A stretch of DNA of 43,690 bases. Source: Trichocoleus desertorum ATA4-8-CV12. Its GTDB lineage: Bacteria > Cyanobacteriota > Cyanobacteriia > FACHB-46. The DNA is taken from assembly GCA_019358975.1 (NCBI GenBank), contig JAHHIL010000051.1, forward strand, positions 1 through 43,690, given 5' to 3'. Numbering within the stretch: position 1 is the first letter of the stretch; every line of letters begins with the position of its first letter. The notes beneath the pieces were generated by a model. It was not told the DNA's origin. It ran no database searches and saw only the letters and a program-made list of their open reading frames with translations. Below are positions 154 to 37,732 of the stretch, one piece after another. Both the position numbers and the translations under genes were made by a program.

Positions 154-993
154 TTAGGGCTGCTGTCGCACATAGTTGCGTTTCATAGGCATTTTTTGGC
201 TGATCGGGATGCACATAGGTGTGCCTGCGATGGGATCGCGGATAATGCTGCTCTTGACGCCAAACACCTCTTCTACTAGGGATTCAGTCATAACTTCTGG
301 TGGCATACCCTGAGCGTAGATATTTCCCTGCCGCATCACCACTAAATAATCTGCGTAGCGACAAGCTTGGTTTAAATCGTGCAACACCATGACGATTGTA
401 CGTCCTTGGGTTTGGTTCAACTCATATAGCAAATCTAGAACTTCGATTTGATGAGCCAGATCTAGAAATGTAGTAGGTTCGTCCAGCAGTAGGATGTCTG
501 TGTCTTGGGCCAAAGACATGGCAATCCAGGCTCGCTGGCGTTGTCCCCCGGAAAGGCTGTCGAGCGGGCGATCGCTCAGTTCCGTCATGCCCGTGATCGC
601 TAAGGCTTGTTCCGTCAACCGTTCATCTTCTTTCGACCATTGTTGCAACCAACTCTGGTGAGGATAGCGTCCCTGAGCTACAAGTTCACGTACAGTCAAA
701 CCTTCGGGAGCAGATGGGTTTTGGGGTAGCATACCCAAGCGCTTAGCAACTTCTTTGGTGGAGAGTTTGGCGATCGCTACGTTATCCAGATACACCACAC
801 CACTCTGAGGCTTGATTAATCGGGCGAGTCCTTTGAGCAAGGTAGATTTGCCACAACCATTAGGACCCACTAAAGCGGTGATTTGCTGAACTGGAATGTC
901 TACATGCAAATCTCGAATAATAGTAGCCCGATCGTATGCCAGGGTGAGTTGCTGAGCGGTGAGTGCTGGTTCCATTGAGGTGCGTTTATGCAT
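154..993 (-). CDS. fecE: iron-complex ABC transporter ATP-binding protein (FecE-like)
   Basis: ATPase subunit that powers an inner-membrane importer of ferric-siderophore or related iron complexes. All ABC signatures are visible: Walker [11 protein letters not shown]-loop region MLPQNP, signature [10 protein letters not shown], Walker [13 protein letters not shown] and the switch histidine in VLHDLNQA. Length of about 280 residues is normal for FecE/FepC. A longer frame reaches 1032, but the ATG at 993 overlaps the end of the upstream permease gene by 8 nt, a typical translational-coupling arrangement; an ATG at 975 is the alternative. It is the last gene of exbB-exbD-permease-permease-ATPase. 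Substrate cannot be told from sequence; B12 or haem importers are related, but exbBD/tonB linkage favours iron. Confidence 0.9.
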
Positions 994-2041
994 TCCGGTT
1001 TCGATAGAGCAGGTAGAGAAAATAGGGCGCACCCACTACAGCAGTAATCACCCCACAGGGCAGTTCGATCGGGGCAAAGAGCGATCGCCCCAAAAAGTCA
1101 GCGAGAGCCACCGTCAACCCACCTACCAAAGCCGCTGTCGGTAGCAGTCCCTCATGAGCAGGGCCAACCAACTGACGTGCCAAATGGGGTGACATTAGAC
1201 CCACAAACCCGATTGTACCTGCTGTCGCTACACTTGCTCCCGACAAAGCCACACAAGTGATCAGCAATAAGCCGCGCTGCCACTCGATCGGCACACCTAA
1301 ACCACGGGCAACCTCATCTCCTAAGTTAAGCGTGTTTAGATCACGAGCGCACAATAAAGAGAGTGGAATGAACACTCCCAACCAAGGCAATAACGCTTGC
1401 ACATGCTCCCAAGTGCGGCCATAGACGCTACCTGCTAACCAAACCAAAGCTTGACTGACATCCTCAATATTGCCAAAGGTAATTAACAAGCTACTAAGAG
1501 CTGAGGCGATCGCACCCACACCAACCCCCACCAAAATCAGCCTAATTGGGGCGCTACCCCGCTCCCAAGCCAATCCATAAACTAACAGCGCTGCGATGAA
1601 GGCTCCTGCAAAGGCAGCAATGGGCAAAACAAAGGCAGGAAGAGAGGGAAACAGCACAATCAAAGATACTGCGGCTAAACCTGCACCCGCTTGCACGCCC
1701 ACAATTTCTGGAGATGCCAAAGGGTTGCGAGTCAGCCCTTGCAGAATAGTGCCAGCGATCGCTAACCCAGCCCCTACCAAAAACGCCACAATGACGCGGG
1801 GCAAGCGCAAGGTGTTGATTACAAAAGCATCATCAGGGTTAGTAGTCGGCAACCCTAAGATAGTTTTGATCACATCCAATGGTGAAATCGGATACTCCCC
1901 ATAGCCCACGCTCCAGATCATGACCAGCAGCGCAGCAACCGCAAGACCCAGCAGCACCAGCGGAGCCCGGCGGTTAATCTTAAATGAGAGTGGCCAAGCG
2001 GATGAACGAATGACTAGCCAAGGCGGTTCTATTGGTTTCAT
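986..2041 (-). CDS. fecD: FecCD-family ABC transporter permease, second subunit
   Basis: Membrane subunit of the BtuC/FecCD family, forming the importer pore with the permease encoded just upstream. The 351-residue protein has about nine or ten hydrophobic segments after a basic N-terminus. It keeps family hallmarks: [38 protein letters not shown] near residues 75-115 and the [19 protein letters not shown] stretch near residue 280, which contacts the ATPase. It begins 10 nt after the preceding permease stop and its end overlaps the ATPase start. The two permeases share the same motif order, so the pair arose by duplication and probably works as a heterodimer. Which of them corresponds to FecC or FecD is by gene order only. 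Confidence 0.88.
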
Positions 2042-2051
2042 TGCATCCCTC

Positions 2052-3107
2052 TCACCGTTTTACTTGCGATCGCGCCAGGTAGATAAAAAACGGAGCGCCT
2101 ACCAAAGCGGTCATAATGCCAACGGGTAGCTCCTGAGGTTTGATCACTAAGCGGGCAGCGAGATCAGCCAGAGATAGCAAAATTGCCCCCCACACAGCGG
2201 CATGAGGCAACAACCAACGGTAATCGACTCCCACCCAAAAGCGCACGATGTGAGGCACCACCAAACCGATGAAGCCGATCGGCCCTGCTAAAGCCACAGC
2301 GCTACCTGCCAGCAGTACTACTACCAAAGCCGCGATCGCCTTGACCCATCCAGTTTTTAGCCCTAACCCTTTCGCGACATCTTCACCCAACGTTAGCGCT
2401 GTAATTTGTTTACCCATGCTAAAAGCTAGGACTAGCCCAATTAGGAGGTAAGGGAGAACCTGCAAGAGAATATTGAGATCGCGTCCTGCCACTGAGCCTG
2501 CTAACCAAAACCGCACTTCATCTAAGGTGCGCTGGCTCAAGATCAAAGTTCCTGTGGTGAGGGCAGATAACAAATAGCTCAAAACGGCCCCTGCCAAAAT
2601 GAGCTTTAGAGGTGTAATGCCACTGCGTCCCACAGAGCTTAACAAGTAGACACTAACAGCCGCGATCGCCCCTCCAGCAAACGCTACCCAGGCCTGTACT
2701 TGAACCGATACATTCCCCCAGAAAAACGTAGATAGCACCACTGCGAAGGCTGCCCCAGTGCTAATGCCTAAAATTCCCGGATCAGCGAGGGGATTGCGAG
2801 TTAACCCTTGCATCAGGGCACCTGCCACAGCTAACGCCGCCCCCACCAACAGTGCCACTAAGGCTCTCGGCAACCTCACATTGGTAATAATCAGGTGATT
2901 GGTGGAGCCATCAAAAGCCGTTAGAGCTTGCCACACAGTAGCAAGATCAACATCGGCTGCCCCTAACGTAATGCTGAGCATCAGGCAACCGATCAACAGA
3001 AAAATCCCCACAACCAGACCGACAAGCTGGAACTTATAGGGTTGGTTTTTCCCTCTAGTTGAGGAGTTTGAATCGTCTCCCCATTTCCTCATCTCCTCAT
3101 TCACCAT
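2052..3107 (-). CDS. fecC: FecCD-family ABC transporter permease, first subunit
   Basis: First inner-membrane permease of the iron importer, 351 residues and rich in hydrophobic helices. Motifs [39 protein letters not shown] (about residues 80-117) and GPIGFIGLVVPHIVRFWVG (about 275-295) are diagnostic of FecCD/BtuC permeases. The charged N-terminus (MVNEEMRKWGDDS) is cytoplasmic. Its start lies 2 nt after the exbD stop, so it is co-transcribed and probably coupled to exbD. A second ATG six codons in is possible. This fusion of TonB-motor genes with an ABC importer in one transcript ties outer-membrane energisation to inner-membrane transport. Confidence 0.88.
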   Translation of the reverse strand: MVNEEMRKWGDDSNSSTRGKNQPYKFQLVGLVVGIFLLIGCLMLSITLGAADVDLATVWQALTAFDGSTNHLIITNVRLPRALVALLVGAALAVAGALMQGLTRNPLADPGILGISTGAAFAVVLSTFFWGNVSVQVQAWVAFAGGAIAAVSVYLLSSVGRSGITPLKLILAGAVLSYLLSALTTGTLILSQRTLDEVRFWLAGSVAGRDLNILLQVLPYLLIGLVLAFSMGKQITALTLGEDVAKGLGLKTGWVKAIAALVVVLLAGSAVALAGPIGFIGLVVPHIVRFWVGVDYRWLLPHAAVWGAILLSLADLAARLVIKPQELPVGIMTALVGAPFFIYLARSQVKR

Positions 3108-3109
3108 GC

Positions 3110-3511
3110 TTAAGGACGACGAGTTGAGATTCCCATCTTCACGCCTTCTATAGTGCGTAACTGATCCATCACCGTAATTACTTCACCATGAGGAACCTTT
3201 TCATCGGCATTGACTACCACCAACGCCTCCGAGCCATTTGCCATCATAGCTTTGACTTTCGCTGGTAAATCTTGAACTGTGGTTGGTTGGCGATTGAGAA
3301 ACACGTTTCCTTGCGCGTCAACGGTGACTGCAATTTTGCTCTGTTGTTGCGACTGAGCCGTTTGCGCCTTAGGTAAGTTGACGGGTAGTCCCTCGGAGCG
3401 AGTCAAAAACAAAGATGACATGATGAAAAATGTCAAGATGGCAAAGATGACATCAATCATCGGCACGATATTAATTTGAGGAATATCATCTGCCTCTTCG
3501 GGAATGTTCAT
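3110..3511 (-). CDS. exbD: biopolymer transport protein ExbD
   Basis: Proton-channel subunit of the ExbB-ExbD-TonB motor in the inner membrane. The 133-residue protein has a short cytoplasmic N-terminus, one transmembrane helix (INIVPMIDVIFAILTFFIMSSLFL, about residues 15-37) carrying the conserved membrane-embedded Asp of the PMIDV motif, and a periplasmic domain ending in GVKMGIST. Length and layout match the ExbD/TolR family. The stop of exbB lies 6 nt upstream and the next permease starts 2 nt downstream, so the gene is in the middle of the iron operon. TolR is the main alternative, but the ABC importer and nearby tonB argue for ExbD. Confidence 0.9.
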   Translation of the reverse strand: MNIPEEADDIPQINIVPMIDVIFAILTFFIMSSLFLTRSEGLPVNLPKAQTAQSQQQSKIAVTVDAQGNVFLNRQPTTVQDLPAKVKAMMANGSEALVVVNADEKVPHGEVITVMDQLRTIEGVKMGISTRRP

Positions 3512-3517
3512 AACTGC

Positions 3518-4168
3518 TTAACTCATCACTTTTGAGACTGAACTAAAACCTTCATGACGGCTGAGATGCAGAACTTCAAGCTGACTGCCATACTCTTGAA
3601 TTGCCGCAAGCTGCCGTCGATAGAAGCCCCGAAAGAGACTAGTAAAAACTAGCGTAAACAGCGCCACAATCAGACCTGCCGCAGTTGAAACCAGGGCTTC
3701 ACTGATACCCCCCGTCACCTGCACGGCGCTCTCACTGCCAACACTTCCCAAGTTGAGGGAGGCAAATGAGCGAATTAAACCCAGAACAGTTCCTAGCAGC
3801 CCTAGCAAGGGAGATGCCGCAATAATCATGTCAAAGACCGAATTAAACCGTCTAAACATGGGCAACTCTGCCTGTGTCGCTCCTTCTAGCGTTAGCCGAA
3901 AGGCGTGAGGTGGAAAGTGATCGACTTCCAAAGCTTCTAAAAAGATACGAGCGATCGGGAGGTCAGCATTTTGTCTGAGCTTGAGTATTGCGCTATCAAA
4001 ATCATGGGGATAAATGCGAAGTGTATCGCGGATTACTCGCTTTTGCCGCCGATTAACTCGGAACCAAAAGGTCAAACGTTCAATAATCAAGGCGATCGCC
4101 ACAATCGAGAACCCCAACAGGGGAAACATGACGACGCCACCTGCAAGAAACAGTTCAACAATTAGCAT
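3518..4168 (-). CDS. exbB: MotA/TolQ/ExbB proton channel family protein
   Basis: Inner-membrane scaffold of the TonB motor; with ExbD it converts the proton gradient into movement of TonB. Three hydrophobic segments are visible: residues about 3-25, then about 105-130 (IIAASPLLGLLGTVLGLI) and about 150-175 (ISEALVSTAAGLIVALFTLVF), the last two with the small-residue pattern typical of the family. The frame is open to 4255, but the extra 29 residues include a Cys/Pro-rich stretch unlike ExbB, so the ATG at 4168 is chosen. First gene of the minus-strand operon; it diverges from tonB across a region of roughly 360 nt. Confidence 0.87.
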   Translation of the reverse strand: MLIVELFLAGGVVMFPLLGFSIVAIALIIERLTFWFRVNRRQKRVIRDTLRIYPHDFDSAILKLRQNADLPIARIFLEALEVDHFPPHAFRLTLEGATQAELPMFRRFNSVFDMIIAASPLLGLLGTVLGLIRSFASLNLGSVGSESAVQVTGGISEALVSTAAGLIVALFTLVFTSLFRGFYRRQLAAIQEYGSQLEVLHLSRHEGFSSVSKVMS

Positions 4169-4528
4169 TTCTAGCTCACACGGCAATAGAGCTGACCTTG
4201 GGAGCCAGCAAAATAATTTCAGAGAAGCATGATTGAAGAGACTCACTATTGACATCTCTTCTCAAAAGAGATTAGGTCTTGCAGTAATTAATGTCAAGTA
4301 TTCGCATTACAGCAGTTATTATTTTAGAACCCTTTAAAGTGCTTTAACTTCCTGTATCTGAAGGTACCAGTACCTCAAAAGCCTTTGATTCAGTTGTTCT
4401 AGTGTTAGGCGAAGCAGCTAGTTAACAGCAATTAATGGATTGACAGTACAGCCGTTGAATTTTAGGATGGGCAAGTCAACTAGAAATATTTGCAATAACT
4501 ATTCACCGCCCAGCAAACAGTAAAGCAA
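4169..4528. promoter_or_regulatory. divergent promoter region between exbB and tonB
   Basis: About 360 nt without a supported gene, separating divergent exbB and tonB. It must hold promoters for both directions. An A/T-rich imperfect dyad near 4481-4504 (AAATATTTGCAATAACTATT) lies just upstream of tonB and loosely resembles a Fur-type iron box, but the match is weak. A short palindrome GGTACCAGTACC occurs near 4365-4376. Iron repression is expected from the genes, not proved by the site. Confidence 0.3.
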
Positions 4529-6157
4529 ATGACATTCTCAGACACGGTTTTTCAACAACGCGAACAGCAAGAGAAGACCCTCAAGCGGTTTATTGCTTAC
4601 AGTCTTGCGGGATCATTTGCCTTGCACGGAGTTGGACTGTGCCTGAAAGTCAATAATTTCTGGAAGCCAGAGCAGACAAAGGTAGAAGAGATCCTCATCG
4701 TCGCGACTGATACGCCAGAAGAAGAGTTAACCGAGCCAACTCCCGAACCAGAGAACCTCCCAGAAGCAACGGTGGAGACTGAGGTCGCAACTGCTGCTGG
4801 TACAGAGGAAGCGGGTACCACAACTGTACTAGCAGCTGCTCCAGCATCCTTTACCCCTGCTGTTGAAGCGGCTCTCCCAGACCCTATAGTGCCTGAAGAG
4901 CTAACCCCAGAACCCCCACCCGAACCAACCCCCGCTCCAGTCGTTGAAGATCTGCCATCGCCTACGCCTGAAGAGCCAACCCCAGAGCCACCTCCCGAAG
5001 AACCTGTAGCTGAAGATAAACCCCAAGAACCAACTCCCGAACCCCAGGCGGAGACGACTGAAGCAACTCCCTCTCCCGTGGCAGAGCAAAAACCAAAAGA
5101 GGAAGTCGCGAAGGCACCCCCCCCCGCTCCGCGCAACTCGAACAATTTTCTACAAGACCTATGGCGTCCTCGCGAACGAGCTAGCCAACCCACTGCAAAT
5201 CGCAGTAGCTCGAATGCTTCTGCTACAACCTCAAGTCGTGCCACAGGCAGCTCAACTACAGGTAGTTCGACCGGAAATGGTTCTGGACAAGGCACGAGCA
5301 CAGCGGTTGGGCCAAGCCGACCAGGTACTGGTTTAGGCCCAGGCTCGGGTGATGGCAAGAACCCAGGATCACAAACAGGTGCTAGCCAAACTCCTCCGGC
5401 AGAGAAGCCGCCTAAGCGAGGCAACCAATCGCGCGAGATTACATGTCAAGGTTGTGAAAATGCTACGTTTGTACGTCCCAAGGAGGCTAATGGAGCTAAA
5501 GGTGAGCCTGAGCTAATCTTTAGCTTCGGCGAGGGAGGAAAGCCACAGGTTACTCTCTCCAAATCCAGCGGTAACAGTGTGTTGGACGAAGCTGCATTAG
5601 AGCAAGCTCGTGAGCAATTAGAGAAAGAGAGTGACTGGGAAGGAGCCAAAGCTGGCGATAGGGTCCGGATTGTAGTTGAATTCACTGATAAGGATTCAGC
5701 GCGCGATCGCCCACAAGAACGCCGCAGTATCACTGTTTCTGAACCTGCCCCAGAACCCGTTGCATCTGAGATTCCTGAAGTCCCATCTGCTGCCGTAGAT
5801 CAACCAGCAAGCTCAGAGACTACCACAACCACGAATACTCCATCGACTACTGCCAGCCCCTCTGCTATACCGAATCCAGAATCAGCAGATAGCTCGGAAA
5901 CTCCACAGCCCCCAGTGGAATCTAGCTCACCAGCAGATTCTCCAGCACCAGAAGCAGAGCCGATCCCAGAGGCTGCACCAGAACCAGAGTCTATTCCCGA
6001 ACCAGAGCCTATTCCCGAACCCGAACCGATCCCAGAAGCTGCACCAGAACCAGAGCCTATTCCCGAACCCGAACCGATCCCAGAAGCAGAGCCGATCCCA
6101 GAGGCTGCACCAGAACCAGAGCCTATTCCCGAACCCGAACCCGAAGCGATCCCTTAG
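4529..6157 (+). CDS. tonB: TonB-family energy transducer with long Pro/Glu tail
   Basis: Transmits ExbBD-derived force across the periplasm to outer-membrane receptors. Residues 20-45 form the N-terminal signal anchor, with a Ser-Phe-Ala-Leu-His arrangement like the TonB SxxxH motif. A Pro/Glu-rich periplasmic spacer follows (about 60-205), then a Ser/Thr/Gly linker (215-290). A compact TonB C-terminal domain spans about 305-395 ([19 protein letters not shown] to [12 protein letters not shown]). Unusually, a further 150 residues follow, Ser/Pro-rich and then ending in near-perfect PEPEPIPEA-type repeats. At 542 residues it is about twice the E. coli TonB length. The frame stays open for 57 more codons past the TAG stop. 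It diverges from the exbBD/ABC operon, its functional partner. Confidence 0.85.
5950..6150 (+). repeat. in-gene tandem repeat encoding PEPEPIPEA units
   Basis: The 3' end of tonB is made of repeated blocks built on GAACCAGAGCCTATTCCCGA and CCCGAACCCGAACCGATCCC. Larger 48-bp units recur, for example around 6030-6077 and again from about 6105. The units are nearly identical at DNA level, which points to recent slippage or unequal exchange and probable length variation between strains. Confidence 0.75.
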
Positions 6158-6387: not shown

Positions 6388-7080
6388 CTACTCAGGTAGG
6401 AGAACAGGGAAAGTAGGGGTTCCAGCAAACACTTGTTGAAGCGCATCCAGCACATCAATGCCTTGCTTTGTGAGGGTGGAAAGATAGCCTCGAATGCAAC
6501 AAAACATCTGAGCGCCCTTGATGGAACGAAAGCCTCCCGAAATCTTCTGCCGCAATTTCATCAGGCGTAAATCCCGCTCCGCCTGATTATTATCAAACGG
6601 CACTCGAAAGTCATACATAAAAGCGAGCACTGCCGATTGCTAGGCCAGACGATTCAGTAAGTTTCTAGGTGGACTTTGTTTAGGGCGACCTCTTGACTTG
6701 GGTTTTAATCTCAATCAGTAAGCTCATCATCGACTCTGCCCAACATTGCCCGTAGCGTTCCATCACAAACAGCAACTCGCGCAGGGGGTGAGCGTTGCAC
6801 AAGCCATGCTGACATCCATAGTGAGCGCATAGCTTGACCAGCCATCGTGAACGCTTGTGCCTGTAAAGTGGGGTAGAATCCCCATCGCGTCCATCGCCAC
6901 CTGACCTCGTTTCGGGTGGATGAAGTAGTGGGCCAATGCCCCGCTACACGCGACATGTAACCAGATCAATTTAGCGCCAACCCGTATCCCTGTCTCGTCA
7001 AAATGCCCAACGGCATTCCACCCACGACGCCAGAGTCAAACTCAAGCACCTTTATCCTGTCTTTGAAGCGACAGAATCAA
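6388..7080 (-). pseudogene. IS66-family transposase remnant (tnpC)
   Basis: Pieces of one IS66 transposase can be read on the minus strand in several frames. Upstream is GHFDETGIRVGAKLIWLHVA (about 7015-6950), continuing through HPKRGQ and FTGTSVHDGWSSY. After a frameshift comes ERYGQCWAESMMSLL (about 6765-6720), then the C-terminal YDFRVPFDNNQAERDLRLMK and FRSIKGAQMFCCIRGYLSTL (6630-6388). The catalytic DDE domain is broken by at least two frameshifts and deletions, so no active enzyme is made. Neither end of the IS, nor its tnpA/tnpB genes, is visible. It sits between tonB and a small membrane gene. Confidence 0.8.
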
Positions 7081-37510: not shown

Positions 37511-37732
37511 TTAGAGTGCTTCTGGATCAAGCTCTGGCGGCAGACCCATTGGTTCTGGGTCAGGCTCATCAGCAACAGGTTCTGGATCAGGTTGGGGAGT
37601 AGGTTCTAGATCAGGCTCCGGAGCAGATTCTGGATAAGTCATTGGCTCTGGAGTTTGTTCTGGAGGAACCTGAATTTCAGTCGTAGTGATTTCTAAAGTA
37701 GATATCATGATGTGTGCGTGTGGTAGGGTCAT
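37511..37732 (-). CDS. small Pro/Glu-repeat hypothetical protein
   Basis: 73 residues (or 65 from the ATG at 37708, MISTLEITTTEIQVP). Most of the protein is PEP-type repeat: PEQTPEPMTYPESAPEPDLEP, PQPDPEPVADEPDPEPMG. There is no signal peptide or membrane anchor. It resembles the repeat tail of the TonB in this window in composition but has no folded domain. It may be a natural spacer-like peptide or a gene scrap; codon use is regular and there is a proper stop. Confidence 0.4.
   Translation of the reverse strand: MTLPHAHIMISTLEITTTEIQVPPEQTPEPMTYPESAPEPDLEPTPQPDPEPVADEPDPEPMGLPPELDPEAL

Follow-up and report, generated by a model that had tools for sequence, protein, structure and literature searches.

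TonB is usually treated as a three-part protein that ends in its receptor-binding domain, and domain III is given as the final 100 residues in the section of a 2025 survey of force transducers that defines it (PMC12204202). The canonical TonBs of E. coli, P. aeruginosa and Neisseria have a membrane helix with an SxxxH motif, whose meaning is described in part of the same survey, followed by a Pro-rich linker and a TonB_C fold at which the chain ends, and they work with ExbBD partners. For TonB2, TonB3 and TonB4 of Anabaena sp. PCC 7120, an extension C-terminal to the region that binds the TonB box has been drawn, as given in the Fig. 1 legend of a 2021 paper, which in its relevant passage also estimates the linker of TonB3 (All5036) at 32 nm, a length described as matching the inter-membrane distance (PMC8597729). 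Uptake of schizokinen and cobalamin needs TonB3, going by the parts of the literature consulted, and tailed TonBs must work, since this protein is drawn with the extension. As far as that legend goes, the extension is therefore already known from one species. What appears to be new here is the spread of the tail, its absence from some groups, and its constant length with changing chemistry.

The DNA analysed here, referred to as the window, is a stretch of 43,690 nucleotides from Trichocoleus desertorum ATA4-8-CV12 (contig JAHHIL010000051.1). Its tonB (4529..6157, + strand) encodes 542 aa, C-terminal tail included, with the membrane helix, Pro-rich linker, TonB_C fold and ExbBD partners of a canonical TonB, but with a chain that continues for ~150 residues past the fold. 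A long extension past the fold is likewise drawn for Anabaena TonB2, TonB3 and TonB4, a likeness that was judged from the figure legend; compared with TonB3, the tail in the window is Pro/Glu-rich with tandem repeats. SjdR (Anabaena TonB1) shares the TonB-like annotation and has a Pro/Thr/Ser-rich periplasmic part, but in the published description covered it carries a ~65-aa cytosolic N-terminal extension, whereas only ~20 residues precede the helix of the window protein.

The predicted N-terminal membrane helix (4589..4651, +), assigned by eye from the sequence, contains the SxxxH motif (S29 and H33, as S29-FAL-H33), which a pattern search recovered in 111 of the 124 proteins gathered from the class. 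It is followed by a linker (residues 42-302; 4652..5434, +) that is first Pro/Glu-rich and then Ser/Gly-rich and that precedes the domain. A CxxC motif (CQGC, residues 306-309; 5444..5455, +) stands immediately N-terminal of the fold and is invariant in all 30 rows of the homologue alignment. In that position, CxxC was found in 92/124 class proteins and in 0/13 from outside the class, and tail-less proteins of family f17 have it too; it is a possible disulfide or redox site. The TonB C-terminal domain (residues 318-386; 5480..5686, +) was delimited by profiles, AlphaFold2 and Foldseek. The tail comprises residues 391-542 (5699..6154, +) as read from the sequence, its modelled part being predicted structureless, and contains a 10-residue post-domain motif with an [ED]RxxVxV-like pattern (5717..5746, +) and a tandem repeat near its end.

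Profile scores for the window protein itself were low: TIGR01352 matched residues 320-385 of the whole protein at 17.4 bits (cut-off 27.1), and PF03544 matched the excised domain at 17.9 bits (cut-off 24.6). Among its homologues, PF03544 was matched at E<=0.01 in 30/30 alignment rows, the window included. Foldseek ranked TonB domains first, weakly for the window model (best E 0.0098) and strongly for the model of homologue L022 (E 1.6e-7). Together with the adjoining exbB-exbD genes, these results bear out the proposal of an earlier note, made from the sequence, that the frame is a TonB, and we regard this identity as nearly certain. The weak matches to PF06519, examined as a TolA-related check, were confined to 7/30 alignment rows (best E 0.00073). 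A Tyr-Pro pair at the start of the fold is at least 90% conserved at each position in homologue alignment A3; the window protein and that of the same-genus relative G001 have an insertion and FVRP instead, a sequence difference that is not treated as defining.

A structure prediction, of the kind that the earlier note had suggested, gave for the window domain, with AlphaFold2, a strand-strand-helix-strand order with the final strand at residues 378-382. The E. coli TonB chains (PDB 2grx, 1u07) stop ~4 residues past profile position 84, equivalent to window residue ~386-390, and the tail therefore starts near residue 390. The fold end thus lies at ~382-390, within ~10 residues of the position near 395 given before, and leaves a tail of ~147-156 aa. 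That canonical TonBs end at the fold, as had also been stated, agrees with these E. coli chains and with a small control of seven annotated proteobacterial plasmid TonBs, of which 7/7 end within ~15 residues of the match, or ~10 allowing for an unaligned domain end (a correction made on one of the two matches that stop early); a Burkholderia arboris match without an annotated gene at that place was left out of the seven.

The neighbourhood of tonB is that of iron-siderophore uptake. Divergent from it lie exbB (3518..4255, -; PF01618, E 3e-29) and exbD (3110..3511, -; PF02472, E 4e-30), followed by a FecCD iron-siderophore permease gene (2052..3107, -; PF01032, E 2e-99), a second FecCD-type permease gene (986..2041, -), and the gene of a siderophore-transporter ABC ATPase (154..1032, -); the last two were recognized by eye, the ATPase from its Walker motif, and both are syntenic with G001. 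Because divergent exbB-exbD and iron-siderophore permease genes adjoin it, the window tonB is of the working type. The genes exbB and exbD were found beside tonB in 17/20 loci examined, which had been chosen from strong matches, several of them for a nearby receptor. The listed start of the window exbB lies 29 codons upstream of a Met that aligns with the start of G001 ExbB, and by this alignment the inner Met is the likelier start.

In G001 the same block continues across tonB with acylase-like, MFS and ferredoxin-like genes, a binding protein and a receptor, all named by eye except the receptor. Unlike in G001, the receptor-side block of the window genome sits on contig C40 (G000:C40:40658-48397). 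It holds the one Plug receptor of this genome (G000:C40:41323), whose block adjoins tonB in G001. A C-terminal remnant of an IS66 transposase (6388..6630, -; PF03050, 39.3 bits against a cut-off of 23.1, with NF033517 below its own cut-off) lies 230 bp past the tonB stop. The placement of the second block on C40 and this remnant after tonB indicate that the siderophore island is split in the window genome. IS66 insertion was rejected as the source of the tail, as the remnant follows the stop and G001 has a similar tail with no transposase listed beside it. Two more TonB_C-like frames occur in the window's own genome, and both end without such a tail.

The tail itself is only partly repetitive. 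The earlier note had described ~150 repetitive residues; the length is real, but the repeats are confined to the final ~65 residues and are preceded by an initial ~80 that are Ser/Thr/Pro/Glu-rich and non-repetitive. A DNA repeat encoding PEPEPIPEA-type units is present as it had reported, although the 48-bp blocks given there correspond to a secondary period (score 138), and by tandem-repeat scoring the best period is 66 bp (5948..6141, +; 2.9 copies, 88% match, score 297). Among 200 codon shuffles of the tail the top score was 96, compared with the real 297; 200 synonymous-codon shuffles that kept the protein reached at most 272. As none of the latter attained 297, the DNA repeats slightly more than the protein demands. 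The repeat units differ between the congeners (66 bp in the window, 18/36/54 bp in G001), while their tails are nearly equal in length (147 and 143 aa); the differing arrangement, as read from the two sequences, fits repeat turnover. In the models of the window protein and L022, pLDDT was mostly below 50-60 across the modelled tail beyond the first helix. Order-promoting residues made up 8.6% of tails vs 14.7% of linkers.

The tail is shared by the nearest relative compared, G001, so that the case named in the earlier note as decisive against it, close relatives whose TonB ends at the fold, is not what was found there. An assembly artefact or frame fusion was rejected on account of this congener and the many tailed homologues. 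In a further member of the genus (G002), a search for a tailed TonB found none, the best profile match being at E 0.002 in a 407-aa frame. Of the 124 class proteins, 123 have an uncut 3' end; the part past the fold measures at least 40 residues in 111 of these, at most 10 in 8, and 12-34 in 4 (L062, L075, L079 and L081, which are counted here but left out of the tree described below; L062 has an in-frame stop). The value 111/123 is not a class frequency, because the sample consists of best matches to the window domain or to a profile built from tailed proteins (60 class and 20 outside-class places were fetched by choice besides the automatic loci), and because a second fetch of 20 places chosen as short-looking, families f14, f33 and f5 among them, gave 19/20 with 0-6 residues past the fold, the other running off its contig. 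At least 40 residues of tail were present in 78/82 proteins with a profile score of at least 90, with an interquartile range of 143-165 aa. Outside the class, 11/13 proteins have at most 10 residues after the match; the two with at least 40 have low scores and are perhaps not TonBs. In named cyanobacterial genomes, 15 of 16 loci reach a stop with long tails and one is cut by a contig end.

In the sampled sequences, the tail thus presents itself as a common cyanobacterial trait across many families, of which the Pro/Glu units of the window would be a local version. The TonBs of the sister classes and of several cyanobacterial families, which we take to be probably early-branching lineages, end directly after the fold. 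Plug receptors are also present in families without the tail (e.g. f5, f14, f17 and f33), so that not every cyanobacterium requires the tail for its TonB to function. Among 194 relatives, a TonB of the family (E<=1e-9) was found in 116 and a Plug receptor in 123, with both in 113, a receptor only in 10, a TonB only in 3 and neither in 68, a co-occurrence that speaks for the identity as TonB; these counts are uncorrected for relatedness and include tail-less TonB members. A rule that takes the final 100 residues as the domain would mistake the tail for it in tailed cyanobacterial TonBs.

In a rapidly built tree of 134 domains, the presence of the tail needs 4 changes, compared with a mean of 26.5 in shuffles; the tree rests on 77 columns, has many open forks and no inferred root, and its starred branches force 2 changes. 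The tail-less rows cluster with the sister classes and families f14, f33, f5, f29, f21, f17 and f34, and two isolated losses are seen in f32. The simplest reading of this tree is that the tail was gained after the earliest cyanobacterial branches.

Three chemistries were distinguished: 51 tails are Pro-rich (median 156 aa), 36 basic (155 aa) and 24 mixed (116.5 aa). The constant length may partly reflect shared descent, and f32 supplies most basic tails. The [ED]RxxVxV-like pattern occurs in 36/51 Pro-rich tails, 2/24 mixed and 0/36 basic ones. An LRxSLRRxR-like stretch ends many basic f32 tails (L044, L055, L078 and other loci). The earlier note had put forward an anchor to the cell wall or outer membrane as one possibility; a charge-specific anchor cannot be general, because tails of similar length are Lys/Arg-rich or Gln/Glu/Arg-rich in other lineages, and this turnover of charge, as it appears in the sequences, argues against a single electrostatic anchor. 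Net charges of linker and tail are correlated across species that are not independent (rho 0.72, n=99), as if one envelope environment met both. Their lengths, with the same dependence among species, are uncorrelated (rho -0.07), and a simple periplasm-width rule is for this reason not favoured.

Our best explanation overall, held tentatively and at a little short of an even chance, is an iron-siderophore TonB with a disordered tail of ~150 residues that is selected for length and tolerant in sequence. ExbB-ExbD would drive the window TonB within an iron-siderophore uptake system, and its C-terminal domain would grip the TonB box of the outer-membrane receptor. The tail of ~150 residues, predicted to be disordered, leaves that domain at its C-terminal end, on the outer-membrane side, and would be kept for being long, hydrophilic and disordered, not for its sequence. 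Cyanobacterial peptidoglycan is thick, and the tail, as a leash or brush, could keep the domain facing the receptor, beyond this layer, and prevent its retreat through the mesh from one pull to the next. A polyproline helix measures 0.31 nm per residue, so that 147 residues would by arithmetic extend over ~46 nm when fully stretched; reach, which the earlier note supposed the tail might tune, depends in its usual meaning on the linker that precedes the binding domain and not on a tail that follows it. Such a physical role is conceivable but on balance somewhat doubtful. The wider proposal, that in crown cyanobacteria TonB has a fourth part, a disordered, length-conserved and chemistry-free tail that acts by its polymer properties, as an entropic leash or brush running through the peptidoglycan, is rather unlikely as it stands. 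The literature searched, mostly outside subscription journals, describes no such mode of action for TonB or TolA, and no function of the tail or experiment on it was found there. If the tail matters, it raises the question of how force transducers can operate where the cell wall is thick, and it bears on cyanobacterial iron uptake.

The tail might instead bind a specific ligand by means of short lineage-specific motifs (e.g. LRxSLRRxR in f32), the partner being peptidoglycan, lipopolysaccharide or an outer-membrane protein. A basic C-terminal end common to many f32 tails and the [ED]RxxVxV motif right after the fold in Pro-rich tails would suit this. However, no Pfam domain was found at E<=0.01 in 4/5 tails searched, and the window tail gave only a sub-threshold low-complexity match. 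The net charge of the distal tail also differs, being negative in 38/40 Pro-rich tails and in only 5/39 others, and we consider a specific ligand unlikely.

Less probable again is an electrostatic clamp, in which an Arg-rich helix after the last strand grips the acidic residues located behind the TonB box in siderophore-type receptors, with the remaining tail being passive. AlphaFold2 placed a helix at 90-102 (the RRNRDARRRGDRQ region) in L022, receptors of the window and related genomes read IRIVATDDEEEG, IQIVATGEQEED and IQVVATGDQEDD, and Lys/Arg make up on average 28% of the first 20 tail residues in Pro-rich tails and 37% in others. The window protein, however, has a shorter version (13 residues) whose model is without such a long helix, TGTRTPR follows the box in other receptors of tailed genomes, and just 25/40 Pro-rich tails carry a net positive charge over their first 20 residues. 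Whether the tail tends to occur together with acidic TonB boxes was also looked at, but this comparison is confounded by receptor type and was not counted. Cyanobacterial receptors (L237-L276, L182-L207) have two types of TonB box, followed by an acidic run (TGEQDEGY) or by TGTRTPR.

That the tail is a neutral appendage, grown by repeats and harmless, would be consistent with its fast sequence turnover, its tandem repeats and the two isolated losses in f32, but its length is tightly spread and losses are few. A simulated neutral tail, moreover, stayed stop-free in only 0.8% of 20,000 runs at the congener fourfold-site divergence (d=0.64, from 436 fourfold sites in exbD and two permeases of one congener pair; substitutions only, indels ignored). 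Neutral retention is accordingly improbable, slightly more so than the clamp, and the tail is very probably under selection. That the post-domain motif, which by eye resembles the receptor TonB box IRIVATDDE, docks as a self-inhibitor on the last strand of its own domain is highly improbable and was set aside, being disfavoured by both structure models (window and L022), which do not show the motif as a strand and give it pLDDT<50, and by the absence of the pattern from all basic tails.

Among named genomes, the plasmid TonBs of Leptolyngbya sp. BL0902 and Pseudanabaena sp. ABRG5-3 resemble the window protein in running ~134 and ~120 residues past the match with exbB-exbD adjoining, and differ from it in tail sequence. 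The BL0902 copy (L207) also differs in lying among zinc-uptake (ABC transporter) genes and hemB, next to a TonB-dependent receptor. A second Pro/Glu/Asp-rich repeat, of PEPDPEP type, occurs elsewhere in the window, in a 73-aa frame at 37511-37732 (-) with a 24-bp array at 37551-37635.
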